Source: Ulva prolifera
Lineage: Eukaryota > Chlorophyta > Ulvophyceae > Ulvales > Ulvaceae
Assembly: GCA_023078555.1 (NCBI GenBank)
Contig: CM041197.1
Coordinates: 1,143,501-1,207,500, forward strand
Reading direction: 5' to 3'
DNA length: 64,000 nucleotides
The translations under genes were made by a program, and so were the position numbers. Shown here piece after piece: positions 288 through 27,387 of this stretch (within the stretch, counting starts at the first letter, position 1; the number at the start of each line of letters is the position of its first letter). The notes beneath the pieces were generated by a model that did no database searches, was not told where the DNA came from, and saw nothing but the letters and a program-made list of their open reading frames with translations.

Positions 288-2797
288 TTTGTGGACGACA
301 TTCGGGACATCAGCGACCGGTGGGTCGCGGACGGCGACCAGCTGAGCAATGCCGGCCTCTCAAACATGGTCTGGAGCTTCGGCCAGTTTGTTGGTGCGCC
401 CCGCGGTGACACGTCTCTGCAGAGGCTACAGCTGTAGTTGCGCTCTGCAAGACTTATTTTGAGCTTCGTATGCTGTCCCAGGGCAAACCCTCAGATTGAC
501 TGCGTGTGCTGGCATAAGAACAAACAGGCAGGCTGGTGATTCGGATGAGACTTGGTTTTGGTGTTTGTCTTCTCCCGTTCACTCTTTTGTAATTATGAAA
601 ACAAACGGGCAGGCACTGCGTGCTCAAATGGCAATATTACCTCAGCCATTCGCGCCGGCAAGAGCACGTCGTCATTGCCACCTGACCATCTCGCCCTAAG
701 CAATTCAGGAGGCGTTGCTTGTACGTGAGCTGTAATGTTGGAGGTGGCGTGCATCTGCACACCCGGAGCGGCCACCCAACCGCACCTCCGAGAGTCTTCA
801 GTCACATGAATAATAACATCACGATGAAGGCACACAGCACAAAACACATGGCCTATGGCCTGTAGACGTCACCCTTCGCACGGCCAGTGGTTGCGGTGCA
901 GATCACGACCTGACGCTGACCCTCGAAGACGAGGAGGGCCCCTCGGTCGAGGTCGACACGGAACTCGATGTCATGGAGATCTTCAAGGCCATCACCATCG
1001 ACCGCCGCGGCTGCAAGAACCAGCTCAACGTCCACACGCCGCTCATCGACGCCGGCCCGATCTACGGCTCCGACCGCACCTACCTCCAGCAGACCCTCCG
1101 CCTGCCGGGCACCTGCCGCATGCGAACCGCCGAGGGCGACTTCTTGCCGATCACCACCTCCGCGAATGAGAACGGCCAGTTCACGATGCTCGCGGGAGAC
1201 GTGCGGGTGTCGGAGCACGCGTTCCTCGCCGCGCAGCACACCGTGTGGGTGCGCGAGCACAACCGCATCTGCGACATCGTAGAGAGCACGCCGAGCCTCG
1301 ACCGCCTGTCGGGCGACCAGAAGTTCGCACGCGTGCAAAACATCGTGATCGCCAAGTTCCAGCAGGTGATTCTGACGGAGTTCCTACCGGCGCTCGGCAT
1401 CACGCAGGCCGACCTCGAGGCGGCGGACGAGCTGTCCACGGCGAACGGCGTGTCGGTGGAGTTCAGCATTGCTTACCGGCTGGGGCATGACCTGATCGGC
1501 AATACAGTCGGCGACATGCCCGTCGCTGAGGCGTTTGACTCCGAGGTGCGCCCAAGCCACCTTTTGCTGTACACAGGACTGTGTGGAATATGTATTCATT
1601 ACGGTACCATATGCATGTGATTGTAGACGCATGTGCTGCGCGAATGACGAGCAATGCCCAACTCTTGCATCTTAGATGCTGCAACACAGGTTTACGCGGA
1701 TGTATGTGCTGTGCCATGTCTCAAGTACGCATACACAACAGTCGCAGCAGGCGCACGACGGCCGACGGCATTCCAACGCTGCAACTCATCGACCCAGGCA
1801 GTGCAGCTGAATCACTGCAACGCTGAATTGATCAACCGTACCGTACACCGGTAGCAAGGGGCATGCAGGGCTTCTTCCTGGACTTCAGCGGCCCAGACAA
1901 CGCCCCCTCAGTCACCTACAAGCCCAACGCCAACGAGCTCATCAGCCAGATCATGTTTGACCTGGCCGGCAGCTCCGCCAACGAGATTGACGGCCGGCTT
2001 TCCAACGCGCTACGCAACCTGCTCTTTGGCGCAGATGAGGGCGAGGACCTCGCGGGCCGCAATATCTTCCGCGGCCGCGAGCTCGGCCTGCCCTCCTACG
2101 CCGGCCTTGCGCGCTGCTACGGCACCACCGCCGATCCCCAGGTCCGTTTTCAATGTCACCTGTGTGTGGGTGAATGCATGGGGTCGCACCCTGTGCGCAG
2201 GAGCTGCTGATGTCCGCTTTGGGCCGCAGTAACGTACCTCCGAGTGGTGCGGTGGACAGTTCCCGAGAGATGTGACGTGCGTAGGTGACATCTAGTGCGG
2301 GTTCATGCATGTATGCATACGCAGCTTGAGCATGTGGACGTAGGTCATGTCGGGCATGGCGTCGCACGATCACTACTGTCTTTGTTTGCAGTTCTGGCTG
2401 AGAGTGTATGCCTAGCAGTAACTTGCATCCTTCTGTGCTACTCCTTGCGATGGTGAGATTGGAAGCAAACCCTGGTAGCAGATGCGAACGTTAAAGAGAT
2501 TTTCGGCGTACGTTTGTGACCATGCGCTCCACTCTACAGGTTGAGGAGGAGACCCCCGACGCGTGGCTCGGCCTGCTGCGCGAGCCCAAGGCCGCCGGCG
2601 AGGCCCTACCCGCCACCCTCCGTGCCATCATCGTCGAGCAGTTCCACAAGAGCTTCTTCGGCCGCCGCGGCCGCTACTGGCGCGACCTCCCCGGCCGCGT
2701 GCGCCCCTTCCAGGACGAGATCGAGGCCACCACCTACGCCGACATCATCTCCGCCAACACCGGCGCCCGCGTCACCGGCAACGTCTTCAAGGTTTAA
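288..2797 (+). CDS. Animal-type haem peroxidase, copy A (5' exon outside window)
   Basis: Exons read as 288-393, 902-1545, 1869-2141 and 2540-2797, joined by GT..AG introns in phases 1, 0 and 0. The first, signal-peptide exon seen in the sister genes must lie upstream of base 1. The product belongs to the animal haem peroxidase superfamily (myeloperoxidase/peroxinectin fold), which uses H2O2 to oxidise halides or organic substrates. Visible hallmarks are SNMVWSFGQFV running across the intron into DHDLTLTLE (active-site Gln, haem-linking Asp, distal His), IDAGPIYGSD (calcium loop), GDVRVSE (catalytic Arg, haem-linking Glu), REHNR, RLGHDLIGN (proximal His) and GRNIFRGRELGLP (Asn that supports the proximal His). 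It ends FKV-stop. It is closest to copy B, and its last intron/exon boundary is almost identical to B's, which suggests a recent duplication. Family and catalytic roles are established knowledge; the splice model is inferred by comparison of four copies. Confidence 0.88.
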
Positions 2798-3070
2798 GAG
2801 GACTCATTGTCTGGTTGGCCATGCATGTGCAACATGCATGATCGCTTGCAATCGTGTCCCTTCCTTACCAGCCCCAGACTTTGTACGCCAGTCTTGCAAA
2901 TTTGTCTGTTTAAAGTCAACCTTGGGGGCATCGCGCGGGTGCACTTGTAACCCTAGGATGCATATGCATCCTGCCGAGATGTGCTAGGTTTGACACAAGT
3001 AGATGTAGCGGCAGTGTTGGGGGCATCTATTAGTGTGTTGTTCAGGTAGACCCAGACGGTAGGCCCTGGA

Positions 3071-3104
3071 GGCCCGTTGAGCCTGCAGGCCCGTTGAACC
3101 TGCA
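3071..3104 (+). repeat. 17-bp tandem repeat, two units
   Basis: GGCCCGTTGAGCCTGCA is followed directly by GGCCCGTTGAACCTGCA. Confidence 0.85.
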
Positions 3105-3201
3105 AATTTGCGATAGGTCCAGCCAAGTCCAGCTAGATCGGTCACGGCTAGATAGCGTGATCAATACCACATCAATACACGGCACTGCGCAAAACGTCCC
3201 C

Positions 3202-3233
3202 TTGGTGTGTGTGTGTGTGTGTGTATGTGTGTG
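3202..3233 (+). repeat. (GT)n microsatellite
   Basis: About 32 bases of almost pure GT with one TATG interruption. Confidence 0.9.
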
Positions 3234-4456
3234 TCTCTGTTCCCCATGTATCCCCAGTGGCGGGTCACGGCTGTTGAGGGTGTCTGTGAGGCGTGATGCA
3301 GTCAGTGTGTGCATGTGTGCTCTGGCCGCTGCTGCTGTCTGCAGAGTGCCACTGCGTGCTGTGACTGCGCTACTGGTCAGCACCGAAGGTTCTCTAGAGA
3401 GCTTCACTTGCAGCAGGCATGTGAGTGGCGGGCGAGCATTGCATCAGTGTCCCACTGAACTTCAGGGAGTGTCAGCTTCGGGTTTATTTATTTGCTTGCT
3501 AGCCACCGTTGTGGGCAGATCAGGCTCTTTTCAGAAGTGTGAATGTAGCAGCCTTTCAATTGTAACAGCAGTGTCGGTCAATGGTACCACCACAGTATTC
3601 TGCTATTTCTTGCTTTGTAGCTGCACTACATGCGTTTGCACTACAGTCCACAGCTCATACCCACTGAAGGAGTAATTACTACAACTCCGTCTCATAGTCA
3701 ATCGGCGATTGACTGAGTGCTGGAGCCTGTGTCAGCATGGTATGTCACATAGCCCTGTTTCAGCTTCTGAGCTTTCCCTAGCACATGTGGCACAAATGCA
3801 TGTGTACAAGCTGCATGTGTTCTGCAAGTTGCGGCATTGATGACACGAGGACATGCACATCTGGCGCGCATGAGGCTGCCTCAGTAGGAGGTTGGCCACT
3901 GGCTGCTCCTCTCACAAGAGCAACACAAGAGCAGCCCCGCCATCGCACGGCGTCGTCCACCTTTACAGCGACGATATTAATACGTTATTGGCACATGATT
4001 GGTGCTGAAGTGGCGTTGCTCGTCTGACTGCAAGACTTTGATCGCAGTGCTCTGGGTCACTGTCTGGTTTTGGGGATGGTCCAGGCATGCCGCCTTCCCT
4101 AGACCCTGCTCTCAGCTCAAGAGTGGTCCTGAGCTTGAGCATGGGAATGGTCAACAGCTTTTTCTGCGCAACACCTGCCCGGCAGCTGTTGCGGTTCAGT
4201 GGACCAGGGGACCAGAGCATTTGCATCGGCGGCCCTGGAGTGTGTGGAAAGGCCCTCAACCTCAAAGCACCCAGACCTTGTGACGACCGCGATGTGCAAG
4301 GAGCAGCGGCATACCGGTTGGTTCACTGGATTGCCACAGCAGTGCTGTACTTACATGGTCAAAGCTGCATCTGCAGCCAGGTGTGTTTGGGTCAAAGCTG
4401 CATCTGCTGTCAGGTGTGTTTGGGCAGCTGTAGCTTGTGCGGAGGCGATGTGTCGG

Positions 4457-4534
4457 GTCTCGGAGCTCCCCTTGGCTTCCAGGTCTCGGAGCTCCCCTTG
4501 GCTTCCAGGTCTCGGAGCTCCCCTTGGCTTCCAG
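4457..4534 (+). repeat. 26-bp minisatellite, three identical units
   Basis: Three perfect copies of a unit starting GTCTCGGAGCTCCCC and ending TTCCAG (4457-4482, 4483-4508, 4509-4534). Directly upstream, a 31-bp unit (GTCAAAGCTGCATCTGC..) is repeated twice at about 4358-4425. The 26-nt period does not preserve a frame. Confidence 0.92.
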
Positions 4535-6620
4535 GACATTGGCAGCAAAGAGGTAAGTTGGACATACGATGTATGCACGGTAGTTGAAGTGCTGATGACT
4601 AGGTCATGGGTGTCTGCATGCTGTGTGATGCTACACACTATTTGACCGTAAACGTGCGATCCACTGACTCCTGTGCTACGGCGGTGAATGCCACTGGATT
4701 AGTCCACAGAGTGTACAATGAGACGGTGCATTTGTCTCGCCCAGGCTCCAAGGCACCGCGTGCTTCGCAAAGCAGCGTTGCTTCGAACAATTTCAACCAT
4801 TAATAGAGGTCCCAGAGGCTCTGCATGAAAGAACTCGTGCAGCGAGGTGGTGCACGTACCGGGCCTAAGTCATGGCACCTGATTGGACTCGCCTAGAGCA
4901 CTGGCTGTTTTGATTTCCGCGCCAATCTGAAGATTACGGTATAGGATTCACCTTCATCGGTCGGTGTGTTGTATATCAGCGGTTTTCATACGGCGACCCG
5001 ACCGCTAGCATCGCTGCCCTCGCCGAATTACACATAACGAGTCCAGCATGCTGTACTTGGGCGGCCTCGGATGCATAATGCTGATGCATGCAACGTTCTG
5101 CATTCCCTTCACTGCTCCACAGCCCAAATCACGGAAGCTCCTGCCTGTGCATCGATGATATCATGTAGCACATGGCAGTGACTGCCGCGGCACTAAAAGT
5201 GCGAGCTACCATACTGCCGGCACAGTGGAAACTATGAATATATGATGACCGCTCGCTGAAGACTATAATGATACAGATGGAGCTCGGAGACCGGTCAGAA
5301 TAATGGCTATGAGGGCCACTTGAGTGGCACTTGACAATTGTTGTGCGACGAGCATCGTGGAGATGCATATGCCGACGCTTCAAGCCATTGTCAGGCCGCT
5401 CATGAGCAGTCCGAGTTGACATGCGTTCGATGACAGCCGCTCTGGCGGGTTGTAGATGTCCGACATTCCCGTCAGTGTCTACACAACGCGCGCTGATCCA
5501 CGAGCAACGTGTTGTCTTCAGCTTCAGCGATGTCGTATTTAGAAATTAGAAGTTAATGTTGTTAGGAAAGTAATGTACTACGCGTCGCCAGGGCACTCTG
5601 AGCACAGCCGTGCAGTCACCTTCTCGGTTGGCCCGTCCCCACCATCTGAGAAGAAGCTTTATGACTGCAGATACGGCTGCTGTGTGTAAGCAATCTGCGT
5701 CGCACGGCTCAGGGCCGTCAGCCTGGTGGAAGACTAGGCTGCACTGTGCGGCACGTAGTACTGGTCAGATGTCGCCCTATCACTGATTTGCTGCGAAAGT
5801 GCATGCACAGATCACACCCAAGTCGTCAAGTTTGAGTATGTATAATGGCTCTACTTAAGTTGTGCACTTCGAGGCTGTGTTGGCACAAGTCTGACTTCCT
5901 CCTTGCACGGACAGCAGCGAATATGGCTGCAGACACAGGGAACTACATATCCGGATATGGCACAGCAAATTCCCACACAGTCCCTGAATGTGTGAACAAT
6001 TTTTTAATGCCTTTGCAGATCATGGACATCTATGCCAGCATTCCTGCCCTCATGTCCTGGGAAATGCCGTCCGGTAGACTGCTAGATCAGACTGCTAGAC
6101 ATGTGGAAAGCGGGTGTACTGAGACATGATCCCACACCTCGTGCAGGCTCTTCACAGTTTGCTGCCCTGAAGGTATCTGTGTTCCAGCTCATGCCTTGCC
6201 TCAGCCATTGACCACCACCACCACCGAATTTTGAAGCTCTGACTCAGCATGTCAAGCAGGGTGACCATGGGCATCATCATTTTCGATTCTGCATCACCTC
6301 AGGATGATTCACCTGCCACACTGCCTTCATGGGGCATCATGGAGTGGAAGTGCCTAAGAAAGGGTGTGCACCGCACTGCTACAACAGTGTGCATGCACTT
6401 CACAAGTGTCTTGCTGCTACATGGCTCCAGGGCTGCTGGCCATGGGTAATGCTCATGCACAACTGATGCACACAAGGCCATATGTGCTGCCTCTTATCAC
6501 GTATGCGACACGGCGATGCGGGTACAGCAGACATGACCGGCGACACAGCACACTGTACTGGTATCCAAAGCCAAACACGGATGCATCATTGCGGTCACAC
6601 CCCTGCAGAGAGACCGACTA

Positions 6621-6640
6621 CCCCCCCCCCCCCCCCCCCC
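6621..6640 (+). repeat. Poly-C tract, 20 bases
   Basis: Uninterrupted C run after GAGACCGACTA. Compare the tract at 10062, which is preceded by TAGACCGCCTG. Confidence 0.95.
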
Positions 6641-6685
6641 GCTCAAAACTACGTATCTGTCACTGCGTCCTCAGAGGTGCACGCC

Positions 6686-6785
6686 AGTGTTGGGTCATAG
6701 GGCACGATCATATGTAACAATTCCGGAGATTCAGGTCTAATTTCTGGGTGGCAGACCTGGAAATGCTGCAAAATGACCCAACACT
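6686..6785. mobile_element. MITE-like element, 100 bp, with 10-bp target duplication
   Basis: Perfect 12-bp terminal inverted repeats AGTGTTGGGTCA / TGACCCAACACT enclose 76 bp. Direct repeats GGTGCACGCC flank it at 6676-6685 and 6786-6795. Two related copies lie at 18966-19071 and 47360-47459. Size, inverted ends and a 9-10 bp duplication fit a non-autonomous Mutator-like DNA transposon (inference). The 20-base poly-C run at 6621-6640 is just upstream. Confidence 0.8.
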
Positions 6786-6795
6786 GGTGCACGCC

Positions 6796-8481
6796 CCCAC
6801 GCACAGCCTGCCACAACCGCATCCTCCCCAGCAGCCTGTCAGGTGCACACAATAGGACCTCAGAGTCACGTACCTGATGCAGACCACCGCCTGTGAATCT
6901 CTACGCATGTGATCGAGGCCATTGCCGTACACGGCCATGCCCCGCAGGCAAGTGTGCTTGTACCACGGCCACCGAGGGCTGGAAGAATCCCTAGTTGACA
7001 GCGGCAATGCTCGACAGGGCGAGATCATGTTGAGCTGCTGAGCGAAAGGATGCCATGCGGAGCAACAGGTGCACTGGGCTGGGCTTCAGAGGTTAGCCAA
7101 GTCGTCTGATGGTTGCTGGCCAACGCAGCATGCTGTTGCTGGGGTGATGCGGACGTGCAGGTGTGGGCGTGGACGCCATGGCACTCGTCGTGAAACACGG
7201 ACAAAGGTGGCGAGACGGGAGAGGCGACGAGAGAGACAGGTACCTGAGCTCACAGTCTTCGGGGTGCACAAACGTATGTGTCACAGTTTAAAAGCCTGTG
7301 CCTGACTTTGCAGAATTCACGCACCTGTGCCATCATTTTCGTCCAGGCTACGTCCACCATCGGCGTGCATGGCCTGAACGCACCCTAGCCACGTAGCTGA
7401 GGTTTCCATTGTGCACACTTGCCCTTCTTCCATAGGCACTGCGAGTGACTCTGGCGTTGGTCATCGGAGCTTGTCCACAGCAGCACCGCTGTGCTCAACT
7501 GCAACTTTGGCACCAATCTTATGCCCTGCGTGCTGGTGCCGCCGTTGTCTGTTTCAGGCTGGAGTTTTCGGCTGGTATGCGGGCCTGTCCAAGCATAGGC
7601 AGGCATATGCATGTGCCAGCTGCGCCCAGGCTGCCAACACCGGTACCATCGATGGTGATATTCCTGGTCAACTCGAATTTGAAATTCGGCGTGGAGCGCC
7701 GGTGCTCCGCCGACTTCCGGGGCTCTTGCAACATCACCACTAATCATGATTAGTGGTGATGTTCGTGTTTACATGTACACAAATGTGTCAACAGCCTGAT
7801 GCTGCTGTGCGGACGGGTCGCCCGGATCGCGCATAACCAGCTCTGAGTACGCCACGTGGCCAGCTGCCTCGATATCTCGAGATATTTTTGTCTTCAGCGC
7901 TGTACGTACAGTCACCTCGGCCCCGAGGGCACATACACAAGTATGATGCGGATCGCATATTGCGACCCCGAAACTCGCTCTGCACGTGCGTCGAACGTCC
8001 CGAGAATGGGCCCAGGATAGCGCTGCCAGCTCCACACCTGGTGCCATATTCGCTGACCTCGCGACATGAGTGACCACCATCACGGCGGTGTGCACATGCA
8101 TATGTCGCGCCAGGTGCGTACGTTTTGCGCACCACCTCGCCCCCCGGTATTGCACTTGCGGCCTCGCCAATTCTGTCGCACATAAATACGGCCTGCGTCT
8201 GCATACTCCACAATCACCTCCTTCATTCCGGTTACAGCAGCCTTTCGAAAGAATTCTGCCTATAGCTATAGCTATAGAGTTTGCTGCCTCGAGGAGAAAG
8301 AGCTCTAGAGCTGAGTCGCCGTCAGGAGTTACCAACGCCCGCCAAACTGTGCAAGTCGGGCAACGTGTTATCATCGCAATATTAATTGCACTGGGAATCG
8401 AGCCGGACATCTCCGCTTCTCACTCACTCCTCCGCAGCTTGAGCTCGACAAGACCGTCTACCACTTGCAGCTTTCCCATCG
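6796..8481. other. Region upstream of peroxidase B
   Basis: Contains the 34-bp palindrome. There is a (TATAGC)3 run at about 8260-8277, some 210 bp before the ATG, and an ATAAATA word near 8182. Either could be part of the promoter, but no element is diagnostic. The 213-codon minus-strand frame here looks like chance. Confidence 0.5.
7730..7763. repeat. Perfect 34-bp palindrome
   Basis: AACATCACCACTAATCA is followed immediately by its exact reverse complement with no spacer, in a region without genes. It could be a hairpin, a protein-binding site or a transposon footprint. Confidence 0.9.
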
Positions 8482-10058
8482 ATGGTACACCCTCACGTGG
8501 CCGCAGGCGCTGCAGCCCCGCTGCTCCTCTCCAGCACAGCCTGTGCGCAGACCTTCGAGGCAGGCGCTGCGACCGGTGTCTTTGTCGATGAGGGCATCCT
8601 GGTCGACCCCGGCGCCGTCAACGTGGCTGCTGAGGAGGCTTTTGCGATCGAAGAACTCAACGGCACCTTGCGGGCGGCGGTCGAGAGCGACGAGCTGGAG
8701 CAGCAACAACTCATCACCGTCGGGCCGATGATCCGCACATGCCCCTGCACGCGAGTCGGGCCTGGGGATGTGGTGTGCTGTTCCTTGCACCTGCTGCGTG
8801 GTCTGGATACAACGTTGTTAACAATACCACAGCCGCCTCTGTACGCTCATGTCCGAGCCACCGGCGTGTGCTGTGTTGGCAAGCTTGGGCCGATCATACT
8901 TCTTCAGAATCACAGCAGCGCTCGCACACTTGATGAGTCTGACATGCTCGGGTCCTGCAGGCCCGCATCTGTCTGAGGCGTGTATGCGTGCGCCGCTGTA
9001 GTGTGGGTGTGTGTGCGACCGTTGATTCGGAAGAGGTAGACCGTACTAGTACTGTGAAGGCTTGCAATAGCTCATGAATTGCTTCCACTTTTACACAACA
9101 GCAAATGATCTTTAAGAAAATTAGACTATTTGAATGTGCTCAGGATCTCATACTATAGTACATGATCTGTCAGGAATTGGACGTAGCAGCCCCAGGTAGC
9201 TACCTATCTATAGAGGCTCCACTGGCCAGTGGTAGGCTGCGCAGCCATCTTTTTCAGCAAGCTAGCCACCACACGTGCACACAGCTAAGGCATACTGCCG
9301 AGGTTGTCCGGACAGCCTCCGCTGGCAGGACATGGGCCGCATGACGGCACATCGCTTATGCTATCAGTGTGTGCAGTTTGTTGACGACATCCGGGACATC
9401 AGCGACAGGTGGGCAGCAGACGGCGATGTTGAGAGCGTGGTTGGGCTCTCCAACATGGTCTGGAGCTTCGGCCAGTTTGTTGGTGCGTCACCATGTCGTA
9501 CTTCTGCACCGGCATGTTAAATCACTCACCCGGGGCTTATCTTCAAGTTCACAGAGTTGCATCGAAACGTTTTGCCACATGATCATGAAACGTTTATATA
9601 AGCGTTTGAAGCGGTTCTTATCGAAAGAAACGCGTTTCAATGCAACTCTGTATCTTCATGAGCAACCCCTTTGATCTGCTACACGCGCTTGCACCGGTAC
9701 CAGCACGGAAGGCTGGGCTTCGCCTGCGTAGCACTGGCATTGCCACCTGTGGCCATCCCGGCCCAAACTACCAGCGCAGTAATTGTCTCCACTCCGTAGA
9801 GGTGTCCCACTATCAGCGAGCCAGCTTCCTGGATAGCTGCCCTGCATGGCGAGCCTGAATCGGCTGCCGATATCGTAGCTCCCCGGCCTGCGAGTTACAA
9901 TGTGCATGTAAGCACCCAGCACAGATCTCATAGCCTGCTCATATGTAAAGCAAGTTACATCTAGAGTGCACCGCCGCTGTATCCTTTAGAGGACGTTGAC
10001 ATGTCCTGACAACCAGGAATAACCAGCACCACGTGCACATGCCGAAGGGGTAGACCGC

Positions 10059-10092
<34 letters not shown>

Positions 10093-11902
10093 CATGCAAG
10101 TGGCTAGCAATGTACATGTGGCTGCTGGTGACGATGCGGATGGCCGCTGTGCAGATCACGACCTGACGCTGACACTGGAGAGGGAGCAAGAAGGCCTGGA
10201 GACCGAGGTTGAAACGGAACTCGATGTCATGGACATCTTCCCGGCCATCACTGTGCAGCGCGACGGCTGCAGGAACCAGCTCAACGTCCACACACCCATC
10301 ATCGATGCCGGCCCGATCTACGGCTCCGACCGTGCCTACCTCCAGCAGACTCTGCGGGAGCCAGACACCTGCCGCATGCGCACCACCGACGGCAACTTTC
10401 TGCCGATCGCCACTGTCGCGAATGAAAGAGGCGAAATCACGATGCTCGCGGGAGACGTGCGGGTGTCGGAGCACGCGTTCCTCGCCGCGCAGCACACCGT
10501 GTGGCTGCGCGAGCACAACCGCATCTGCGCCATCGTTGAAAACACGCCGAGCCTCGACCGCCTGTCGGGCGACCAGAAGTTCGCGCGCGTGCAAAACATC
10601 GTGATTGCCAAGTTCCAGCAGGTGATTCTGACGGAGTTCCTGCCGGCTCTCGGCATCACGCAGGCCGACCTCGAGGCCGCGACTGAGCTGTCGACAGCCA
10701 ATGGCGTGGCGGTGGAGTTCAGCATTGCGTACCGCCTGGGGCATGACCTCATCGGCAACAACGTTGGCAATCTGCCTGTCGCTCAGGCCTTTGGGTCAGA
10801 GGTGAGCCGCCGCACCTTCCACCACCTTGCGGGAAGCACGTACATGCCATACAGTACAATAGCTAATGTACAAATACTACATCATGTTGAATCGCTGTCC
10901 CGCACCGTGCTGAGAGACTTGCGAGGGGCCTGTGTGGTGCTGAGTCTCCTGCCTGACACCATAATACTGCTTTTCAGTGAACTGTTTCAACAGAACAGGT
11001 CCGGGGCAGCACGTGTCACTCGAAACCTGCAAAGCAATGGCCCTGACCATACAGCTATTTCAGTTTGAACAAATCCAACACTGCTAGCGTGGGGAGTGCA
11101 GCGCTTCTACCTGGATTTCGCCGGCACAGATAGCATGCCCTCCGTTACCTACAAGCCCAACGTACAAGCCGAACGTACGCCGGTCAGCTCGTTGATGACG
11201 TCATGGCAGGGCTGGCCGGTTCAAAAGCCAACGAGATTGACGGCCGACTTTCCAACGCGCTGCGCAACATGCTGTTCGGCACCGGCGAGGACCTCGCGGG
11301 CCGCAACATCTTCCGCGGCCGCGAGCTCGGCCTGCCCTCTTATGCCGGCTTGGCGCAGTGCTACGGCACCACCGCTGACCCCCAGGTCCGTTCTGAAGGC
11401 TGTCTGTATGCGCACATGCATGCGTCGGCCGCGGCAGTTTACGCCAAGGAGCCTCTGAAGTCCTGGGGCTGTGCGGCGCAGCAGTCGGGGAGATGCTTGT
11501 GCGTTCCGGCGATGGTGCAGGTGCATGCATGTGTGCATATGCAGTCGACTGTGCATGTGGTTCACATTATGACGGGCCGAACGGAAGAGGTTCCAGGGAG
11601 CATGAGGAGCTGGACGGCGTGTGACCATGCGCTCCACCCTACAGGTGGAGGAGGACACCCCCGACGCGTGGCTCGGCCTGCTGCGCGAGCCCAAGGCCGC
11701 CGGTGAGGCCCTCCCCGCCACCCTCCGTGCCATCATCGTCGAGCAGTTCCACAAGAGCTTCTTTGGCCGCCGCGGCCGCTACTGGCGCGACCTCCCCGGC
11801 CGCGTGCGCCCCTTCCAGGCCGAGATCGAGGCCACCACCTACGCCGACATCATCTCCGCCAACACCGGCGTCCGCGTCACCGGCAACGTCTTCAAGGTCT
11901 AA
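8482..11902 (+). CDS. Animal-type haem peroxidase, copy B (frameshifted exon 4)
   Basis: Exons 8482-8772, 9377-9482, 10155-10801, 11102-11385 and 11645-11902 follow the family plan. The chosen ATG (8482) opens a plausible secretion signal (Ala/Leu-rich, ending near STACAQT), then an acidic spacer and the conserved IRTCPC motif. Exon 3 keeps DHDLTLTLE, IDAGPIYGSD, GDVRVSE, REHNR and RLGHDLIGN. Exon 4 is 284 nt instead of 273. A 13-nt tandem duplication at 11150-11175 plus a further 4 nt puts the first part (RFYLDFAGTDSMPSVTYKPN) and the rest (LAGSKANEIDGR.. to TTADPQ) in different frames. Without unusual processing the protein would be truncated before the GRNIFRGR motif, so this may be a recent pseudogene or an assembly error. 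Intron 2 holds a MITE-like element and a 29-base poly-C run just before exon 3. The sequence otherwise looks under constraint. Confidence 0.82.
9551..9651. mobile_element. MITE-like element in intron 2 of peroxidase B
   Basis: Terminal inverted repeats ACAGAGTTGCATCGAAACG (9551-9569) and CGTTTCAATGCAACTCTGT (9633-9651) differ at one position. The interior has further GAAACG/CGTTTC inversions and is AT-rich. Flanks ATCTTCAAGTTC and ATCTTCATGAGC resemble a decayed target duplication. Unrelated to the 100-bp GGGTC family. Confidence 0.7.
10062..10090 (+). repeat. Poly-C tract, 29 bases, in intron 2 of peroxidase B
   Basis: The run ends 64 bp before the exon 3 acceptor. It may act as a C-rich pyrimidine tract or just be neutral expansion. 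Confidence 0.95.
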
Positions 11903-13896: not shown

Positions 13897-16800
13897 TCAC
13901 GCCTTGAAGACGTTGCCGGTGACCTTGGCGCCGGTGTTGGCGGCGATGATCTGCGCGTACGTGCTGTCCGCCACCTCGTCCGCAAACTTCCCGACCTTGC
14001 GCCTGAGCGTCTTCCAGTACCGCCCCCCGGGGCCGAAGAAGCTGCGGTGGAACTGCTCAACGAGGATCGCGCGGAGGGTTGGGGGGAGGGGCGAGCCGGC
14101 GGCCTTGGGCTCGCGCAGCAGGCCGACCCAGGTGTCGGGTGACTCAGCCTCCACCTACAAAACTACCCCTCAGTGAGCCACAATTCGGGCAGCAACTGTC
14201 GCAAGTCTCGCTGCCGATGCACGCACGAGAGAGTATCGTGATACTCATGCGTAGCACAGGTATATGCACGTGGTTCATGCATGCAGTTCATGCATGTATG
14301 TGGGATGTCGGTGCGGCACACCTTTGCGTCCGGCTCCACTCCGAAGCACTTGGCCATGCCGGCGTACGTGGGGAGGCCGAGCTCGCGGCCGCGGAAGATG
14401 TTTCGGCCCGCAAGGTCCTGCGCCTCGCTGTGGCCGAAGAGGAAGTTGCGCAGCGCATCGGACAGCTTGCCATCGATCTCGTTGGCGGTGGAGGTGGAGA
14501 GCTTGGTCATGATGTTGGAGAGGTCCTTCTCTGCGGAGGCCTTGTAGGTGACGGACGGGGCACTGGCTGGGCCAGTCGTGTCAAGGAAAAAGCTCTGCAC
14601 ATGCATGGCGCTGTTAGAGGGTGATGTCAACGTGGCCACTGGCACACAATTGCGTGCACTGCAGCGGAGCCTTGCAAATTCTCACTACCAAAAAAAAGCA
14701 CAACCTCATTCAAAAGATAGCTATAGCTAGCCATTGCTGCTACATGTCAGAAATATCATCAGGTCAAGTGTATGGGATGCAGAGCAGCGGTGGCACGCGT
14801 CCAACGTTAACGTATGCCATATGGACCACTGCTGTGTGGGATGTATGCCATCAGTGTATAGCCATCACACATTGTGCGTACAGTTGTGGAAGGACAGCTC
14901 ACCTCGGCGTTGAAGGAGCGGGCGATGTCGATGCCCCCCACGTCGTTGCCGATGAGGTCATGCCCCAGCCGGTACGCGATGCTGAACTCCACCGAGATGC
15001 CGGGGCCCCTCACCATCGGCTCTGCGGCCTCGAGGTCGGCCTGCGTGATGCCGAGCGCCGGCAGGAACTCCTCCAGCACCACCTGCTGGAACTTCGCGAT
15101 GACCACATTCCGTACCAGGTCAAACTTCGCATCCTCCGACATGCCGTCGTGGCGGGGGTCCTTGTTCACCTCCTCGCAGATGCGGTTGTGCTCGCGCACC
15201 CACACGGTGTGCTGCGACGCGAGGAACGCGTGCTCCGACACCCGCACGTCGCCCGCGATGAAGAAGAAGCGGCCGTCGCCGTCGGCGGAGGTCGTGAGCG
15301 GCAGGAAGCCGCCGTCTGTGGTGCGCATGAAGCAGGTGCCAGGCTCGCGGAGGGTGCCCTGGGTGTAGGCCTCGTCGCTGCCGTAGACGGGGCCGGCGTC
15401 GACGATCGGGGTGTGGACGTTGAGGGTGTTCTTGCAGCCGCGGCGGTTGGTGGTGACGGCGCGGTGCAGCCCCATGACGTCTGTCTCGGTGTCCACCTCG
15501 ATGGCGCGGCTGCTCTCGTTCTCGATTGACAGTGCCAGGTCGTGGTCTGCACGATACCAGTGCTGCGGCTGGTTGAAGACGCAACAGTGAATGACCATAT
15601 GGTGAAAGAGTGCAGTGAGAAAAGCAGTCCACTGCATGCATGAGTTCAACTGGCAGCCTAGTGGCTGGTAGCGATTGTGGCTCGTGAGCAGTCACTGCAA
15701 TGTCGTCGCAATAGGGCCGGAGTCGACAACAGGTGAACCTGGCTGATGCATGATACAGCTGTAGAGCACTGCCTGGTAGAGCTAGATACATGGCAAGTAG
15801 GCGTGTGCGCCAGCATAGCACTGCAATGTGCTACCGGGGGGACAAGTCCATTGGACAAGCTTAAGGTTAGTTGGCCTTGGATTACATGTGCACCGGTGTT
15901 CGAACACCGGTAGTGAATTCACTATCGGTTGAAACCGCCGGGTGTGCTCAGTGAGTTCCAGGCCATAGCAATTGCAACTGGAGATCTGGTGAACAGTATA
16001 CTACGTAGCACCACTGGCATGACTGACTCCCGGGACATTGCGTGTTTCACCAGGACGCACCGAGGAACTGGCCGAAGCCCCAGACCATGTTGGAGAGGCC
16101 GGACGAGCTCTTGGCGTTCCCGTCCGCACAGAACTCATCGCTGATGTCGCGGATGTCATCGACTTTCTGCAGTCGAGAGAAGGCTGTTAAACAACACACA
16201 GTCAGTTGGCATTCAGGGCACTGATGCAGGAAGCAGTCCCCAACTTGGTCCTTAATTAACAATTTAATTGAATGCTATTGGTCGAAGCTGTGCTTCTGTC
16301 CACATGACACCTGGACTGAATCCTCAAGTGATAAATTGCAGGCAGAAGCCTACATGCATGTAGGGAAGTTGGCCTGCTTATTAGATCTCATGAGTGGGGA
16401 TTATTCATGGATCTGACTGGCGCTCTGATATCTGATAGCAAGTGCACCAGCGAGACCAGGCATGATCATCCAGCATATGACATTGAACATCACACTAGGG
16501 CCTCACCGCCCGTTGTGACACCACACCAGCAGCCTGAGGCGTCTGGAGCTAGCTCAGGCAATGCCATCATGATGTATGTGCAATCATAGGCATCTCATGG
16601 CCATGCATGCCATGTGGGTGCAGTGAAAAGCGGTGCAGCATATGAGCTTGTACGTACCACGGTCTTGACTTTCTCGCAGTCGCACGTGCGGATGAAGGTC
16701 CCGACAGGCCTGAGATCCTGCCTCTCCAGGACCGGTACAGCCTCTGTGGAGCGACCACTGGTCGTGACGGTGACCTCGACTTCCCCCGACACCTCAGCCG

Positions 16801-16966
16801 CTGCTCTGTTCTCTGCGCCTACCCGGGCACCAGCTGCAGCCTCACCTGTCGCGCGAACGTCGATGGCCACCGCTGCATCTGCTGAAAATGTTCCGAATAC
16901 CCCTTGGCCCAGGGCGCCTGTGGGTAGACTCTGCAGGCCAGCAATGAGAAGAACTGCTCGGAGCAT
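13897..16966 (-). CDS. Animal-type haem peroxidase, copy D
   Basis: On the minus strand the exons are 16966-16658, 16166-16061, 15546-14903, 14594-14322 and 14154-13897, giving 529 residues. The ATG at 16966 is preferred over an in-frame ATG at 17026: it begins MLRAVLLIAG, matching copy C's MLRSLAVLV, and opens a classical signal peptide ending near GALGQ. After a variable Ala/Glu-rich spacer comes GTFIRTCDC, then SNMVWGFGQFL joined across a phase-1 intron to DHDLALSIE. The motifs VDAGPVYGSD, GDVRVSE, REHNR, RLGHDLIGN and GRNIFRGRELGLP are all present. The C-terminal part (QFHRSFFGPGGRYW..NVFKA-stop) is the usual end of the family. All splice sites are GT..AG. It is tail-to-tail with copy B and most similar to copy C. 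Likely a secreted or vesicular peroxidase; the substrate cannot be told. Confidence 0.9.
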
Positions 16967-18680: not shown

Positions 18681-18965
18681 CACAAAAAAGTGCACTTGAC
18701 ACCCCGGGCAAATTGAAAAGGCAGAGTGGGTACTCCGATGCAAAATTTAGAGTGGCCCTGACAGCCCGGGACAAACAAAACTATTTTGTACACCACTGAC
18801 AGTTCTTCTTGCCGGAATTGGTATAGCTAGCCACAGCTCGTCAAACCTCGCAAACACTTTTTAAGTTCACAGCTCTGTTGCTTACAGCTAGGACTGCACG
18901 ATTGGACCCACGACGACTGTTACGTTGACATGCGAAATACCTGGCGGCCTGACATGCATGCATGC

Positions 18966-19071
18966 AGTGTTGACAATTGGGTCGTAGGGCCCAATCACAT
19001 AGAACAATACCGCAATTTCACGTATACTCCAGAATGGCAGCCCTGAAAGTCCTGAAAGGTAACCCAACTCT
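18966..19071. mobile_element. MITE-like element, diverged third copy
   Basis: Starts AGTGTTGACAATTGGGTCGTAGGGC and ends GGTAACCCAACTCT. Between them it aligns over its length with the 6.69 kb copy (CATAGAACAATACCG.., GGCAGCCCTGAAAGTCCTG). Older and more mutated than the other two. Confidence 0.6.
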
Positions 19072-20789: not shown

Positions 20790-21542
20790 TGCGTCGTTAC
20801 ACAGCCACCACAGCGTATCGGTGCAAGGATATAGTTGGGGAGGCAGATATCACCGTACACCCCGCGCATGGACACAGCACGACCAAGCCACACCGCAGCC
20901 GAATTGTTCAGCATCGAATGGATACAGTTGAGGGCGGCTCAGAATCCTCCAGTCCAGCCAACATCATCGGAGCCCCCTGCTAGTGGCATGGTATCGCTCA
21001 CTTCTGATCAGATGACCAGATGCACTGCTTGCCCGAGTGCAGGAAGCACGACTGTGTGCGTGCCCCTGGCGCATCAAAGAGAAACCCGCGGAGCATTCCA
21101 TTCCATCGTGGGGCACTGACTGACCAAGTCACTGCAGGTCTGCCAAAGACAAGTGAGTGAAGCCGGCCATCTGGCAGCTAATTGTGGTCTGAAATTGCAC
21201 CAAATTCCAGTGTTCCCAGGTTTGCTGTGTGTGAGCGGAGGGATGCTGGCATGTGCAATCTTGCAGCAGCACACCACACATGGGCTGCATGGGAGTGTGA
21301 CTGTGCCTGGGAGCACTGTTCGCAGCACCCTCTGTGAGTCAAACAAACGCCACCTCTGTGAGTCTCTCTGTGAGTCACCTGCGACCGACGAAGCAGCTTG
21401 CACAGTATGCATGGTAAGTAATCTGAGTCCATGTGGGGCATGTCATGTCACTCACTCATTCACTCACTTGGACAGAGAGATGCTGTTGACAGGGACTGCT
21501 GTTGACCGTGGACAGGCCCTGCATGAGACACAAAGCCCAGCC

Positions 21543-21793
21543 TTGTGGTGCTGGTGGTTGTGATGTTGTGTGTCGGCCGTGGGGGTTTGTGCGTGCGCGT
21601 GTGTGGGTTTGGGTTTGTGGGTGTGTGGGTCTGTGCGTGTGTGTGCTGGTGTGTGGGTGTGTGCTTGGCGGTCTGCGGATCTGTGTCGCTTGCTGCGCCG
21701 GTGATGGGTGAGATGTTCGTGGGTGTCTTGGTGTTTGCTTCGTCTGCTTGCTCCTTTCGCGGTGCTGCCCGACTTGCTGCCTTTGTCCTTGTA
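21543..21793 (+). mobile_element. 5'-truncated retrotransposon copy, 251 bp
   Basis: The copy is flanked by a perfect 15-bp duplication ACACAAAGCCCAGCC (21528-21542 and 21794-21808). It ends GCTGCCTTTGTCCTTGTA, the same 3' terminus as the 34-38.8 kb element, and contains the TG-rich 3' tail. The long reading frames across it come from the TG-rich sequence and are not genes. Confidence 0.85.
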
Positions 21794-22614
21794 ACACAAA
21801 GCCCAGCCTGGTGGAGGCCTGTCGTATGCTGGGCAGCTGCACAGTCGTTGTGCTCACTGGCAAGGCCTGGCAAGGGAGATTGTGAGTATGCGGTACACTG
21901 CTGCAGGTGCCTGCGAGCACAGCGTTCTTGCAGCTCAGATCTGCTGTGTCGCAGGCTGAGCGTTGCATCTGTTGCTCTGTTGCGTCTGTCCCCGTATCAG
22001 TGTGTGTTGATGCTGCCTTGTGCATGTGATATCGATGCTGACCAGGTTTGTGTGCCCGTTGATGAGGGAGAAAGGCAGATTGCATCTCATGCAGGCAAGT
22101 CGCACCTCATGCAGTGTGCATGCATTGTGTACAGCACCAATGTAAAGCGAAGTAAATCTGAATGTGCTCCAGCGCCCCGCACCATCCGATTGGAAGCGTT
22201 GTGGTCAGTGCCGAAGGGCACCATGCTGAGTGCATGGTTCTGCTACTTTTATTCATCAATATGTTGACTTTTCTGTGTGCTCCCCTGAGGTCCCGGCCTT
22301 GGGCAGCCATGTATTTCATGCATGCGAGGCGCCCAAAGGGTTCATGATGCTGCAGACATCAGTAGTAGTAGATCCTGCTCATCTTGCATTCACTAGTCCC
22401 AGCACAGGCTGGGAAGCCCTCATTCACATGAGGCTATTCGCTTTCCTTTCATGGCGCCCAGCTGCCTGAGCTCAGCTGTCATGAGCATACACAACTTCGA
22501 ATCGCAACTGCTTGTCAATGTCATGAGAAAGCTTTGGAGTAGCCCAGGTTCATATTCATGCACCTCTGTTTCGGTTGGCTGCTAGAGCATTGCTCCAGCG
22601 AAGCATGAGCAAAA

Positions 22615-23280
22615 GTGAACAGAAGTTCCACCGCCGCCGCCTTGGCCGGCGTTCCGCGTTGGCGTGAGGCCCGGGCGTTCGGCTGCGAGATTTGCCTCGA
22701 ACCCGTGACAAGGATAGCGGCGTGTGGCGTGTGTCGACTTGGTTGCACTCCGGACTTGGTTGCACTTCCGTGGACCCCGCAAAAAATTGGACATTTGAAT
22801 GCATCGTGCAGCGCCGCACAGTGGCGCGGAACCGCGCACAACTGCATGCGCCGTGGTCACGGCTGTCGCTCGCGTCCCCGGCTCGCACGCTATGCATCTG
22901 ATTCCGTGGGGGTACCGTTTCCGCTCGAAGCGACGGCCTCGCCTTGTCGCCGGGTCATTGCGGGGTGGACGGACGCCCTGAGAATGACCGAATTCCGGCG
23001 ACACAGTGTGCTGCATGTTCGGTCACAGTGGATCTGCGAGCATCTGATGGCCGTCGATCGCGATGCGTGTGGCTCTGCCGCGGCCTTGTCATCGTCGACG
23101 GAGGCGCGCAGATTGCACTGCGTGCGCGATATGATTCACTGCTTTCGCGGCGCGGGCATGGGCATTGAGGATCGGAGAGCTCGCGCAGAGGTCTTCATTG
23201 GAATTGACGCGATCGCGCCTGTTCTGCCGTGTTGGTCGCCTCGTCGCGGCTGCCGCAGAGCTCACACGCATACGGCGTAG
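22615..23280 (+). CDS. Unassigned 221-codon open frame in CpG-rich stretch
   Basis: Open from 22615 to a TAG at 23280 with two Cys clusters (CEICLEPV, CGVCRLGC) near the start. The region 22580-23700 is richer in CpG than its surroundings, with GATCGC/TCGCGA-like words. A 144-codon frame overlaps on the other strand. No family is recognised and codon use is not convincing. Kept as a low-confidence candidate because of its length without introns. Confidence 0.2.
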   Translation: MNRSSTAAALAGVPRWREARAFGCEICLEPVTRIAACGVCRLGCTPDLVALPWTPQKIGHLNASCSAAQWRGTAHNCMRRGHGCRSRPRLARYASDSVGVPFPLEATASPCRRVIAGWTDALRMTEFRRHSVLHVRSQWICEHLMAVDRDACGSAAALSSSTEARRLHCVRDMIHCFRGAGMGIEDRRARAEVFIGIDAIAPVLPCWSPRRGCRRAHTHTA

Positions 23281-24118
23281 TTGAGACAATTTCCGCTGCT
23301 GCAGATGCATATACGTCAGAAACGACACACACTCTACGGTGTTTAGAATATTTTTAGGCCCCAGGATACTCACGAATTCCATGCTAGATCCTCGCATGGA
23401 CATCGGTTTACCGATACCGCGAGGCCGTACATCGTCCGCTGTACATCAATCCGTCCGACAGGGCGCACGTGAACGGGTGTGAGCGCCAATGCTTCCCCGC
23501 ACATGCGCATATTTGATTCGTATCACGAGCTCGCGTTGGTGCTTTGCCCAGCGCATGGCAGAATGCCCCGTTTCCGCTCGTCGAGGAAAGCCCCGAGCTG
23601 AGCTGGGGCTCAGTGCAGCAAGCTAGGCCGCTCTGCACCTACCGCACGGCTTCTGATGCGCACACGCCGGTGGCCCCGGAACCCTTATAAACTCTTGCTT
23701 GCACTCGTACGAGCTCATGTCCTTTGTATGAAAGAGAATTCCAATGAAGGTGAAACCAGTAGGCGTCCGTCACAGGTGCCGATGCGCCTGCCGAGACTCG
23801 GCGTCAGCCGCGGACGCCGGTACACCACCAACACGCGACGCTGACGACGTCACGAACCTCCCGATTGAGGCGTCGCCCACAAGCCCGCAACCAAATCTTC
23901 CCCCTCGCTCGCGCAGCCCATCGCGACCGCTGCATGTGATTGCAGACCCGGTCAAATAAATGCTTGTGTACTTGCGCTGATCGCCATCTGTTCTGCCTGT
24001 TTGGTTGCACACAACATTACGCTTCGATATCGAGTTGAGTCACCGAAAAGGTTTCAATCACGGAACACGTATACACGACAGTTCCGACCCGCGCCTGTCG
24101 TCACTGTGCCTGCGTACG

Positions 24119-27100
24119 ATGTTGCGTTCGCTAGCCGTACTAGTCTTGGTACAGCAGCTGTCGAGCTCAGCTGCAGCCCAGGATCTAGTGTTCTCTGCCG
24201 AGGCTGCTGTGGCAGTGGAAGACGTGGGGGAGGCAGGGGCTGCTGCAGGAGCTGAGAATGTGGCAGCTGAGGAGGTCTCTGGAGATGATGGCTCTGGTCC
24301 TGTTCCAGAGCTGGCCAGGCAAGACCTGATCCCTGTGGGCACATTCATCAGGACCTGTGACTGCTCCACACCAAAGACTGTGGTACGATCCAGCTCCCAT
24401 GATATGTACAATGATATGTACATACACCACACGTGCACATGTGGTTCCATGGAACCATTCAGGACCACAGCTGAGAATAACAGGTCACAATCAGCTAGAA
24501 AGTAGCTCAAGGCAAGGCAAGCCCTGTGGCAGTGGCTGTATGAAATTGCAGAGCATGATAGTTTCTACAGCCTGTGATCTGGGGTGCATGGTGTTGAGAA
24601 GATACGACTCATGCGTGGCTAAGTATCACAGCCTGATATGCATGCCCTCTAGATCTCACTCTGATCAGGTCTGACTGTGATCAGAAGCTAAACCAATCTG
24701 TGTGAGTACACTTCTTAATCTTCACACAGCTGCTGATCTGCCCTTAACAATCTGCCTCAGTTCACAGGTGATCATGACCCCCACAATTGTGCACAATGGT
24801 GCTGTGCCTGCTCAGCACATGCATGCGTGCATGCATGCACCCTGATCCACAGCAACCATCCAGCTTGGCCAAGGTCAGTAGCAACTGAGCAAATCGGATC
24901 ATGAGACATAGCTGCACTTGCAAGAGACGAGGCACAGCCCAACAAACAGCAACAGTCGTTTGAGCCGGCGCTGTCCATGTGCAGAAAGTCGACGACATCC
25001 GCGACATCAGCGACAAGTTCTGTGCGGACGGGAACGCCAAGAGCGCGTCCGGCCTCTCCAACATGGTCTGGGGCTTCGGCCAGTTCCTCGGTACGCCCCC
25101 ACGCTGCACACAGCATACACACCAAGCCCCCAGCGCATTGCCGCATTCCGCTGTCAACCGCGACCGCACGCTGGCCGAGGCCCATGTGGCCACGTCCACC
25201 ACACAGCGCGCCGCAGCTCATTCTCGGCACACTTCTGGGGGACCGATACACCTGTGATGGTTGTTTCTGTTTGGCACTGGATGTGGTGCGGTTTGATCGC
25301 GCGGCTGCCGGCGGAGGTAGGTCCTAGCGCTAGAGTATACCTCCCCCTCTGCCTGTGCCTTGCCCGTTGTCACTCAGAGTGCCGCGCATGCAGACCACGA
25401 CCTGGCGCTGTCCATTGAGAACGAGCGGACCGCCGCGATTGAAGTCGAGACGGAGACGGACGTCATGGCCCTGCACCGTACCGTCACCACACGCCGCCGC
25501 GGCTGCAAGAACACCCTCAACGTCCACACAGCCCATGTCGACGCCGGCCCGGTCTACGGCACCGACGAGGCCTACACCCAGGGCACCCTCCGCGAGCCCG
25601 GCACATGCTTCCTGCGCACCGCAGAGGGCGGCTTCCTGCCGCTCACGACCTCCGCCGACGGCGACGGCCGCTTCTTCTTCATCGCGGGCGACGTGCGGGT
25701 GTCGGAGCACGCGTTCCTCGCGTCACAGCACACCGTGTGGGTGCGCGAGCACAACCGCATCTGCGAGGAGGTGAACAAGGATGCCCGCCACGACAGCATG
25801 TCGGAGGATGCGAAGTTTGACCTGGTACGGAATGTGGTCATCGCGAAGTTCCAGCAGGTGGTGCTGGAGGAGTTCCTGCCGGCGCTCGGCATCACGCAGG
25901 CCGACCTCGAGGCCGCGGAGCGCAAGGTCAACACGCCCGACGTGTCGGTGGAGTTCAGCATCGCGTACCGGCTGGGGCATGACCTGATCGGCAACGACGT
26001 GGGGGGCATCGACATCGCCCGCTCCTTCAACGCTGAGGTGCGCCTGCTCCCTTTTCTGTCTACTATATACGTAGCATGAAATCTGCTGTGTGGTTCCTCA
26101 AGGCGGTGCGTCTGCGATATCAGCCTGATGCTGTCATGGCACCAGTCAGCGACACCCTGAACGCCGGCGTACTCGTATATGCCTGGTGTAGCGACAGGTT
26201 GGCAGGTAGATAGAGACAGTATATTGATCCGCCAGCGCACTGGCAGCCAGCCGCCACCCTTGCGTATGCACACCTCCCCAGTCCTTGGTTCTGTAGCCGT
26301 ATCCACGTCTCAATGTGCCGCCAGGGTGCTAAACAACCCAAAAAAACAGTAGAACAATTCTTCTTCTTTTGCATGCTCGCAGCCTGCACAGCAGCAGTAC
26401 GAGTGTAGTCTGCTGCCGCTCTGGCTGCTCTTTAGCTGCTCCCCGAGTTGTGAAAAAGCTTCAGCAGATACAGGTTGCAATACATGACCTGTGACGGCGT
26501 ATGCATGACCTGTGACGGCATACATCCTTGCAGTCGTTCTTCCTCGAGACTTCCGGCTCCGACGCCAAGCCATCCGTCACCTACAAGGCCTCCGCAGAGA
26601 AGGACATCACCAACATCATGACGAAGCTCTCCACGACCACGGCCAATGAGATCGATGGCAAGCTGTCCGACGCGTTGCGCAACTTCCTCTTCGGCCATGA
26701 CGAAGCAGAGGACCTCGCGGGCCGCAACATCTTCCGCGGCCGCGAGCTCGGCCTGCCGACATACGCTGGCCTTGCGGACTGCTTCGGCCTCAAGCATGAT
26801 TCCACGGTGCGCCCCTCCGCCACTGTTGTCCCTTGACATGCTTGCACGGCCGCCCATGCATTGGTGGCTGAGCATGCATCGCGTCGGTATTGTTGTTGCA
26901 TGTGAGAACAACACACCATGAAAACCCTGTGCATCGATGTACGCCATATGCAATGTTGCATTCTATGCAAGTCAGGGGGGACAGCCGCCTGAATGAGTCA
27001 CACAGCTGCTGGCGCCGCTCAACTGTTCGCGCAGCGACATGCGTCTCTGTGATCAAGGCTTTGCCGCGGTTGTGCGTCATGCATGCCACAGTCCCACAGC

Positions 27101-27387
27101 ACGTGCACACGCGACGTACCGGCGTGCAGGTCGAGGAGGAGACACCTGATGCATGGGTCGGCCTGCTGCGCGAGCCCAAGGCCAAGGGCGAGCCCCTCCC
27201 GCCCACGCTCCGCGCCATCATCCTCGAGCAGTTCCACCGCAGCTTCTTCGGCCCGGGGGGCTTCTACTGGAAGAATGTGATGCGGAAGATCGGGAAGTTC
27301 GCGGACGAGGTGGCGGACAGCACGTACGCGCAGATCATCGCCGCCAACACCGGCGCCTCCGTCTCCGGCAACGTCTTCAAGACGTGA
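24119..27387 (+). CDS. Animal-type haem peroxidase, copy C
   Basis: Exons 24119-24382, 24985-25090, 25394-26037, 26534-26806 and 27130-27387 encode 514 residues with no interruption. The N-terminus is a signal peptide (MLRSLAVLVLVQQ.., cleavage probably after SSAAA), followed by an acidic Ala/Glu/Val-rich linker of about 50 residues and GTFIRTCDC. The catalytic core carries GQFL-DHDLALSIE (Gln, haem-linking Asp, distal His), VDAGPVYGTD (calcium loop; the Ser ligand of myeloperoxidase is Gly here), GDVRVSEH (catalytic Arg and haem-linking Glu; His where myeloperoxidase alone has Met), REHNR, RLGHDLIGN (proximal His) and GRNIFRGRELGLP. The end is NVFKT-stop. Introns are 600, 303, 496 and 323 nt. 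This is the best reference model for the cluster. Residue roles are established for mammalian homologues and transferred by alignment from memory. Confidence 0.92.
26483..26525 (+). repeat. 21-bp tandem pair before exon 4 of peroxidase C
   Basis: ATGACCTGTGACGGCGTATGC is followed by a near-copy, directly upstream of the CCTTGCAG acceptor of exon 4. Confidence 0.75.

Follow-up and report, generated by a model that had tools for sequence, protein, structure and literature searches.

The green seaweed Ulva prolifera holds, judged from its gene sequences, a lineage-specific family of about 22 single-domain haem peroxidase genes of the animal type. Four of them (genes A to D) lie at positions 288 to 27387 of a 64,000-nucleotide stretch of contig CM041197.1 (C2:1143501-1207500 in the 88.9-Mb, 44-contig assembly that was searched), here called the window. 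Plastocyanin in this assembly (two exons at C6:3.83 Mb) matches PDB 7pcy, the protein of U. prolifera (formerly Enteromorpha prolifera), in 98 of 98 residues, with 1iuz of Ulva pertusa second, which agrees with U. prolifera or a close sister (Chlorophyta, Ulvophyceae). With moderate confidence, we consider the family best explained as secreted haloperoxidases that use hydrogen peroxide (H2O2) to oxidise bromide and iodide. It would point to specific genes as candidates for the enzymes with which Ulva, a bloom-forming, farmed, and bromoform-releasing seaweed, halogenates compounds, and it raises the question whether a green seaweed relies on haem for chemistry that red and brown seaweeds are known to perform with vanadium. 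A 22-gene family with both ester-forming acids and almost no glycosylation sites may somewhat surprise a specialist in a green seaweed, and could be useful for biocatalysis and for the study of myeloperoxidase-like active-site diversification. A literature search found no description of the family in Ulva, and earlier Ulva genome papers may list these genes. PMC5591278 lists a single "heme peroxidase" of U. prolifera, annotated after Coccomyxa, that could not be tied to the 22 genes; the excerpts examined of PMC8307928 and PMC3532339 do not mention the family.

Gene models and family size

The four genes were identified with the Pfam An_peroxidase profile (PF03098) and by homology search. A first Pfam scan, covering ten long open reading frames (ORFs) in the first 27 kb of the window, gave three An_peroxidase matches; E values for exon 3 ORFs were 1.2e-28 (A), 1e-28 (B), and 4.3e-32 (D). 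Searching the window with the gene A exon 3 ORF returned four copies (+ 817, + 10136, - 15550, and + 25372). The spliced proteins matched PF03098 at 6.7e-52 (A, without exon 1), 2.9e-55 (C), and 2.8e-56 (D), with no other Pfam domain in these three at E values up to 0.01, and NCBIfam gave no match for protein D. These matches, with that of exon 3 in B, bear out the original prediction of four An_peroxidase paralogues within 27 kb of what it took for an alga or protist, and the profile search of joined exons that it had proposed as a check was significant for A, C, and D. Exon borders were set from splice signals and agreement between copies, and gene structures by comparison, as follows.

C2:1142722-1143030 (471-779 bp left of the window), gene A exon 1, 309 nt, Met and signal-peptide-like start
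288..393, +, gene A exon 2, 106 nt, ends in the first base of the haem-linking Asp codon
902..1545, +, gene A exon 3, 644 nt, DHD, RVSEH, and proximal His (ORF, PF03098 E 1.2e-28)
1869..2141, +, gene A exon 4, 273 nt, proximal-side Asn and Arg (NIFRGR)
2540..2797, +, gene A exon 5, 258 nt with stop
8482..8772, +, gene B exon 1, 291 nt, Met and signal-peptide-like start
9377..9482, +, gene B exon 2, 106 nt
10155..10801, +, gene B exon 3, 647 nt, preceded by an intron with a long poly-C run
11102..11385, +, gene B exon-4 equivalent, 284 nt, out of frame
11645..11902, +, gene B exon-5 equivalent, 258 nt, synonymous difference to A 0.077
16658..16966, -, gene C exon 1, 309 nt, Met, signal-peptide-like start, and CxC
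16061..16166, -, gene C exon 2, 106 nt
14903..15546, -, gene C exon 3, 644 nt (spliced protein, PF03098 E 2.9e-55)
14322..14594, -, gene C exon 4, 273 nt
13897..14154, -, gene C exon 5, 258 nt with stop
24119..24382, +, gene D exon 1, 264 nt, Met, signal-peptide-like start, and CxC
24985..25090, +, gene D exon 2, 106 nt
25394..26037, +, gene D exon 3, 644 nt (ORF, PF03098 E 4.3e-32; spliced protein, 2.8e-56)
26534..26806, +, gene D exon 4, 273 nt
27130..27387, +, gene D exon 5, 258 nt with stop

The fixed plan of 106, 644 to 647, 273, and 258 nt that had been predicted for all four copies holds for A, C, and D (106/644/273/258 nt), whose GT-AG introns fall in the same places and phases, but not for B (106/647/284/258 nt), whose 284-nt block is 11 nt longer and out of frame. 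As it stands, B therefore cannot encode the C-terminal part with the proximal-side Asn and is probably a broken copy; intact relatives exist. The plan had also overlooked a further 5' exon, present in all four genes, that encodes Met and a signal-peptide-like start; in C and D (309 and 264 nt), it runs from Met through a hydrophobic stretch ending in Ala-x-x-Gln and a linker to a CxC motif. The supposed tandem array is indeed a cluster, but with C on the minus strand it is no simple head-to-tail array.

Across the genome, the PF03098 profile gave 55 exon matches, and protein D as the query gave 88. A custom-written spliced-alignment program (checked on D) was run on 20 loci, of which 19 yielded models of relatives of A, C, and D, with A counted among them; together with B, C, and D, these make 22 genes, so that the predicted expansion was real and understated. 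Models L113 and L121 are poorer, the latter without a start. Eight genes form a cluster of 85 kb at C2:1086068-1170887 (order, + + - + + + - +), which extends the array to the left of the window. The 106-nt exon, whose last nucleotide is the first of the codon for the haem-linking Asp, is common to 20 of the 22 genes, which excludes chance. Exon structure is otherwise more varied: the 644-nt exon occurs in 7 genes, five have the third and fourth coding blocks fused into one 923-nt exon, and others have a split exon 3.

Four closely similar genes with the fused 923-nt exon are spread over three contigs (L105, C2:1.108 Mb; L109, C2:0.325 Mb; L116, C1:6.43 Mb; L119, C3:8.11 Mb). The ratio of nonsynonymous to synonymous change (dN/dS) is 0.05 to 0.12 in the three of their pairs that include L105, which indicates recent dispersal under strong constraint. 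A further PF03098 gene, L120 (C5:5322503-5325250, minus strand; C5:5.32 Mb), could not be aligned over its length with the 22 and lies outside the family; by eye, it looks like a fatty-acid alpha-dioxygenase.

Active site and signs of secretion

Residues are numbered as in protein D, and their correspondence to myeloperoxidase was taken from an alignment to 6azp. Gln121, Asp124, His125, Arg225, Glu228, and His319 are identical in 22/22 genes, and Asn403 and Arg406 in 21/21 (B breaks before them). The catalytic Gln/His and Arg and the haem-linking Asp/Glu are accordingly retained in A to D as predicted, in B as far as its frame goes. Every gene has the distal motif GQxxDHD, the motif GDxRxxE with the catalytic Arg and ester Glu, and the proximal YRxGHD, and all 21 that reach it have NI[FY]RxR. 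Among the superfamily signatures of PMC4420034, GQxxDHD is typical except in families 4 and 7. The roles given to the myeloperoxidase residues are partly general background and partly those of that article. With both acids in place, the haem would be cross-linked by two esters, to Asp124 and Glu228. The Met that forms the sulfonium link in myeloperoxidase is absent, its place being taken by His229 in 20 genes and by Gln in two (L112 and L122).

Features that define other families were mostly lacking. The Ca2+-binding loop of families 1 to 3 is kept only in part, with Asp173 in 22/22 and Thr169 in 21/22 (Ser in L114), but with Gly for Ser in 19/22, the loop residues being read from the alignment to 6azp. 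The KGD motif of peroxinectins (family 3) occurs in only 3 of 22 genes (L113, L118, and L121) and in none of A to D. The features of dual oxidases (family 7), fusion to an NADPH oxidase and loss of the proximal His, are absent, since A, C, and D have a single Pfam domain and the proximal His is kept in all 22, and no dockerin fusion as in peroxidockerins (family 6) was found in A (without exon 1), C, or D (Pfam, E up to 0.01). Pairwise dN/dS (counting method) was 0.05 to 0.38 in 14 pairs, which indicates that the copies are mostly under constraint; the four of these pairs that include B, computed on its exons 1 to 3, gave 0.26 to 0.37.

An in-frame Met followed by a stretch that is hydrophobic by eye was present in 21 of the 22 models. 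Shuffling each of the 22 sequences predicts 53 N-glycosylation sequons (N-x-S/T), but the proteins contain 4; eight divergent members have 1 where 20 are expected. Control motifs in the same eight showed little or no depletion ([ST]xN, 25 versus 21; [DE]x[ST], 74 versus 74; QxS/T, 21 versus 17; NxA/G, 24 versus 32 expected). The deficit was mild in 81 prokaryotic or viral homologues (237 versus 302 expected); eight Ulva kinase pieces had 5 sequons (3.8 expected), and an alpha-dioxygenase-like exon had 2 (1.8 expected). A wider control was sought in sulfotransferases, which gave one weak match only. So few sequons would be unexpected in secreted peroxidases; their avoidance is best explained by the proteins meeting the glycosylation machinery of the endoplasmic reticulum (ER) and so supports passage through the ER. 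From this and the putative signal peptides, we infer that the family is secreted.

Predicted halide chemistry and alternatives

Halide oxidation seems to be the dominant activity of most studied members of the superfamily (PMC4420034). Redox potential is tied to the number of haem esters: bromide oxidation has been shown for the two-ester enzymes EPO, LspPOX, and peroxidasin and is very poor in one-ester PoxA, and only MPO, with its additional sulfonium link, oxidises chloride at reasonable rates (PMC5787809). Since the Ulva proteins keep both ester acids and lack the Met, oxidation of bromide and iodide, and not of chloride, is predicted. This prediction matches the known halogenation by Ulva, which brominates and iodinates bisphenol A and for which bromoperoxidases were reported earlier (PMC11915382); in Ulva fenestrata, bromoform tracks H2O2 in the light (PMC10806984).

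A signal peptide would take the protein into the ER, for release to the cell wall or seawater with haem b held by its two esters. H2O2 from photosynthesis or an oxidase would be split at His125 and Arg225, giving compound I, which would oxidise bromide and iodide to hypohalous acid with Gln121 as the halide-side residue. At the algal surface, the hypohalous acid would then brominate organic compounds such as phenols, as a defence against epiphytes and grazers, and this bromination may feed bromoform release. Four FAD_binding_8 matches in the genome, not separated from ferric reductases, may include an H2O2 source of the NADPH-oxidase type. The defence or halogen chemistry suggested in the original prediction is plausible and gains a concrete footing from the two ester-forming acids, the lack of the sulfonium Met, and the features that suggest secretion.

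Several points weigh against the haloperoxidase assignment. The distal Ca site is altered by the Ser-to-Gly change in 19/22, the signal peptides were judged by eye, and the 22 proteins are related, so that the sequon count is not 22 independent trials and its controls contain no second family of secreted Ulva proteins. Phenols and thiocyanate are also substrates of related peroxidases. The authors of the U. fenestrata bromoform study assume vanadium enzymes (PMC10806984). An algal-type vanadium bromoperoxidase could be encoded in the genome: six PF01569 (PAP2) matches are present, phosphatase-type by eye where readable, and a cyanobacterial (bacterial-type) vanadium enzyme query found nothing there in a search run without a positive control. 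Algal vanadium bromoperoxidases, unrelated to haem peroxidases in protein family and cofactor, would do the same chemistry. We put forward only tentatively, as a somewhat doubtful extension, that the long-known bromoperoxidase activity and the bromoform of Ulva are due to these haem proteins instead of a vanadium enzyme; green seaweeds would then have arrived at the halogen chemistry of seaweeds through expansion of a myeloperoxidase-like family that stayed free of N-glycans and was partly homogenised by gene conversion.

Large families with secretion signals are also typical of extracellular plant peroxidases, and the Ulva proteins could, like class III enzymes of land plants, oxidise phenolic or tyrosine groups in one-electron steps and thereby cross-link the wall, halide oxidation being incidental. 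A radical route of bisphenol A degradation in Ulva, for which an oxidoreductase such as a peroxidase has been proposed (PMC11915382), fits such a role, but every residue linked to two-electron halide chemistry, the halide-side Gln and the two ester acids among them, is the same throughout the family, and 18 PF00141-type exon matches in the genome (unsorted by class) mean that this niche need not be empty; we think wall cross-linking unlikely as the main function. Distinctly less probable is extracellular H2O2 removal, in which peroxide released in light or on emersion would be detoxified with any convenient donor. Ulva does release H2O2 in light and under stress (PMC10806984), but detoxification leaves unexplained the strict conservation of the halide pocket and the retention of 22 copies. 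Lipid-oxygenating enzymes of the cyclooxygenase or alpha-dioxygenase type share the Pfam family, and one gene of the genome (L120) is alpha-dioxygenase-like by eye. For the 22 genes, such a function is barely credible, given GQxxDHD (typical except in families 4 and 7; PMC4420034) and RxxE in all of them and the scores of the family profile, which gives cyclooxygenases 41 to 44 and alpha-dioxygenases 61 to 62 bits versus 165 for myeloperoxidase and 454 for structure 8s6c, itself one of the six rows of the profile.

Relatives, duplication history, and the rest of the window

The nearest solved structures are 8s6c, Dictyostelium PoxA (6erc), and the myeloperoxidase, lactoperoxidase, and eosinophil peroxidase group (family 1). 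Structure 8s6c (labelled "Lactoperoxidase") is also the best PDB match of protein D alone (E, 4.9e-34), with 33 to 34% identity over a 359-residue segment and shared distal and proximal motifs; in trees it adjoins Planctomycetota sequences outside the Ulva clade, a long stem between them. PoxA is a secreted, single-domain protist protein, but is glycosylated and has Ile at the ester Asp (PMC5787809), whereas the Ulva enzymes keep Asp and mostly lack sequons. Family 1 has the Gln/Asp/His, Arg/Glu, His, and Asn/Arg positions in common with Ulva and differs in the Met replaced by His or Gln and in the Ca-site Ser, mostly Gly in Ulva; myeloperoxidase is remote in the tree. Bacterial peroxidockerins (family 6) have a dockerin part fused to the peroxidase domain, unlike the Ulva proteins, which have no dockerin or second Pfam domain, group in a clade of their own, and are encoded by genes with introns. 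Relatives were found by search in Lyngbya and many other bacteria, and Lyngbya LspPOX has been shown to carry two haem esters and to oxidise bromide (PMC5787809). The bromoform-making red seaweed Asparagopsis has animal haem peroxidase-like proteins (same superfamily by name only), one of which was detected in its proteome and has a predicted secretion (PMC12115072); the occurrence of animal-type peroxidases in a seaweed is thus no novelty in itself.

A collection was scanned with two patterns that cover the GQFxDHDL region only and miss relatives differing there. It yielded 130 matching stretches, of which 85 encode relatives; 80 were kept (26 to 33% identical), from Planctomycetota, Pseudomonadota, Cyanobacteriota, Chloroflexota, and others. 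In viral contigs, a close search found no relatives and a profile search found 7 remote ones, of which L081 alone was used, in the first tree below and in the sequon count. Ulva formed one clade in a first tree (SH-aLRT, 98; 90 rows with 12/22 Ulva genes, leaving out the other 10 and 5/81 homologues that were partial) and in a second (100/100, long stem; 54 rows with 9/22 Ulva genes, leaving out 13 and 39/81 homologues as near-duplicates or partial or long rows). No bacterial sister group to the clade appeared in either tree, and a grouping of Ulva with PoxA and myeloperoxidase was not rejected (approximately unbiased test, p-AU 0.341). The family is thus a separate branch of the superfamily, with neither transfer from a particular bacterium nor descent favoured.

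In an Ulva-only tree, A and B pair (99/96) and join L106, L107, and L110 (100/100), and C pairs with D (90/94), in agreement with the two subfamilies first proposed; the branch of B is 0.22 against 0.028 for A (B fills 49% of columns). The older-then-newer order of duplications proposed with them is unsafe. Synonymous difference between C and D is 0.76, 0.09, 0.17, 0.43, and 0.26 in exons 1 to 5, that between A and B is 0.43, 0.46, and 0.28 in exons 1 to 3 and 0.08 in exon 5, and introns of A/B and C/D are alignable at 41 to 64% only. With similarity this patchy, exon identity is no guide to when the duplications took place. Variable third positions were put to a run test (105 pairs of 15 genes, from 19 after leaving out B, L113, and L121), which placed C-D (codons 254 to 297; p 0.0002, the test floor) and L104-L111 below the Bonferroni limit and nine pairs below 0.01, with nothing for A-C (p 0.25) or A-D (p 0.49). 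The C-D pattern fits gene conversion, and part of C/D looks homogenised. Against this, one 25-codon segment of exon 3 has a low synonymous difference of 0 to 0.13 in all six pairs examined, which points to synonymous-site constraint or family-wide homogenisation there.

In the rest of the window, no Pfam match above the cut-off was obtained for 10 further long ORFs or for 61 ORFs outside the peroxidases, mostly at 28 to 64 kb (61/117 of those of at least 125 aa). A segmental duplication of about 5 kb (about 29040-33990 and 39430-44080, some 10.2 kb apart, 80 to 95% identical in blocks) also had no such match in the ORFs scanned; elsewhere in the genome, a 2-kb piece of it matches only over 0.33 kb on C7. 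Between C and D (21540-21798) lies a GT-rich element of about 259 bp, flanked by a direct repeat of 15 to 16 bp and ending in TTTGTCCTTGTAA. A first look gave 1062 candidate copies, of which the best 40 were scored (97 to 100% identity, many contigs), and a diverged inverted copy is at 63523-63743. As single-stranded DNA, the element folds worse than its shuffles; at a guess, it resembles a young retroposon of the short interspersed nuclear element type. A 381-aa ORF (59356-60498, minus strand) weakly resembles collagen repeats, at 21.3 bits against a cut-off of 27.2; the match covers a 9-bp tandem repeat and is probably a repeat artefact.

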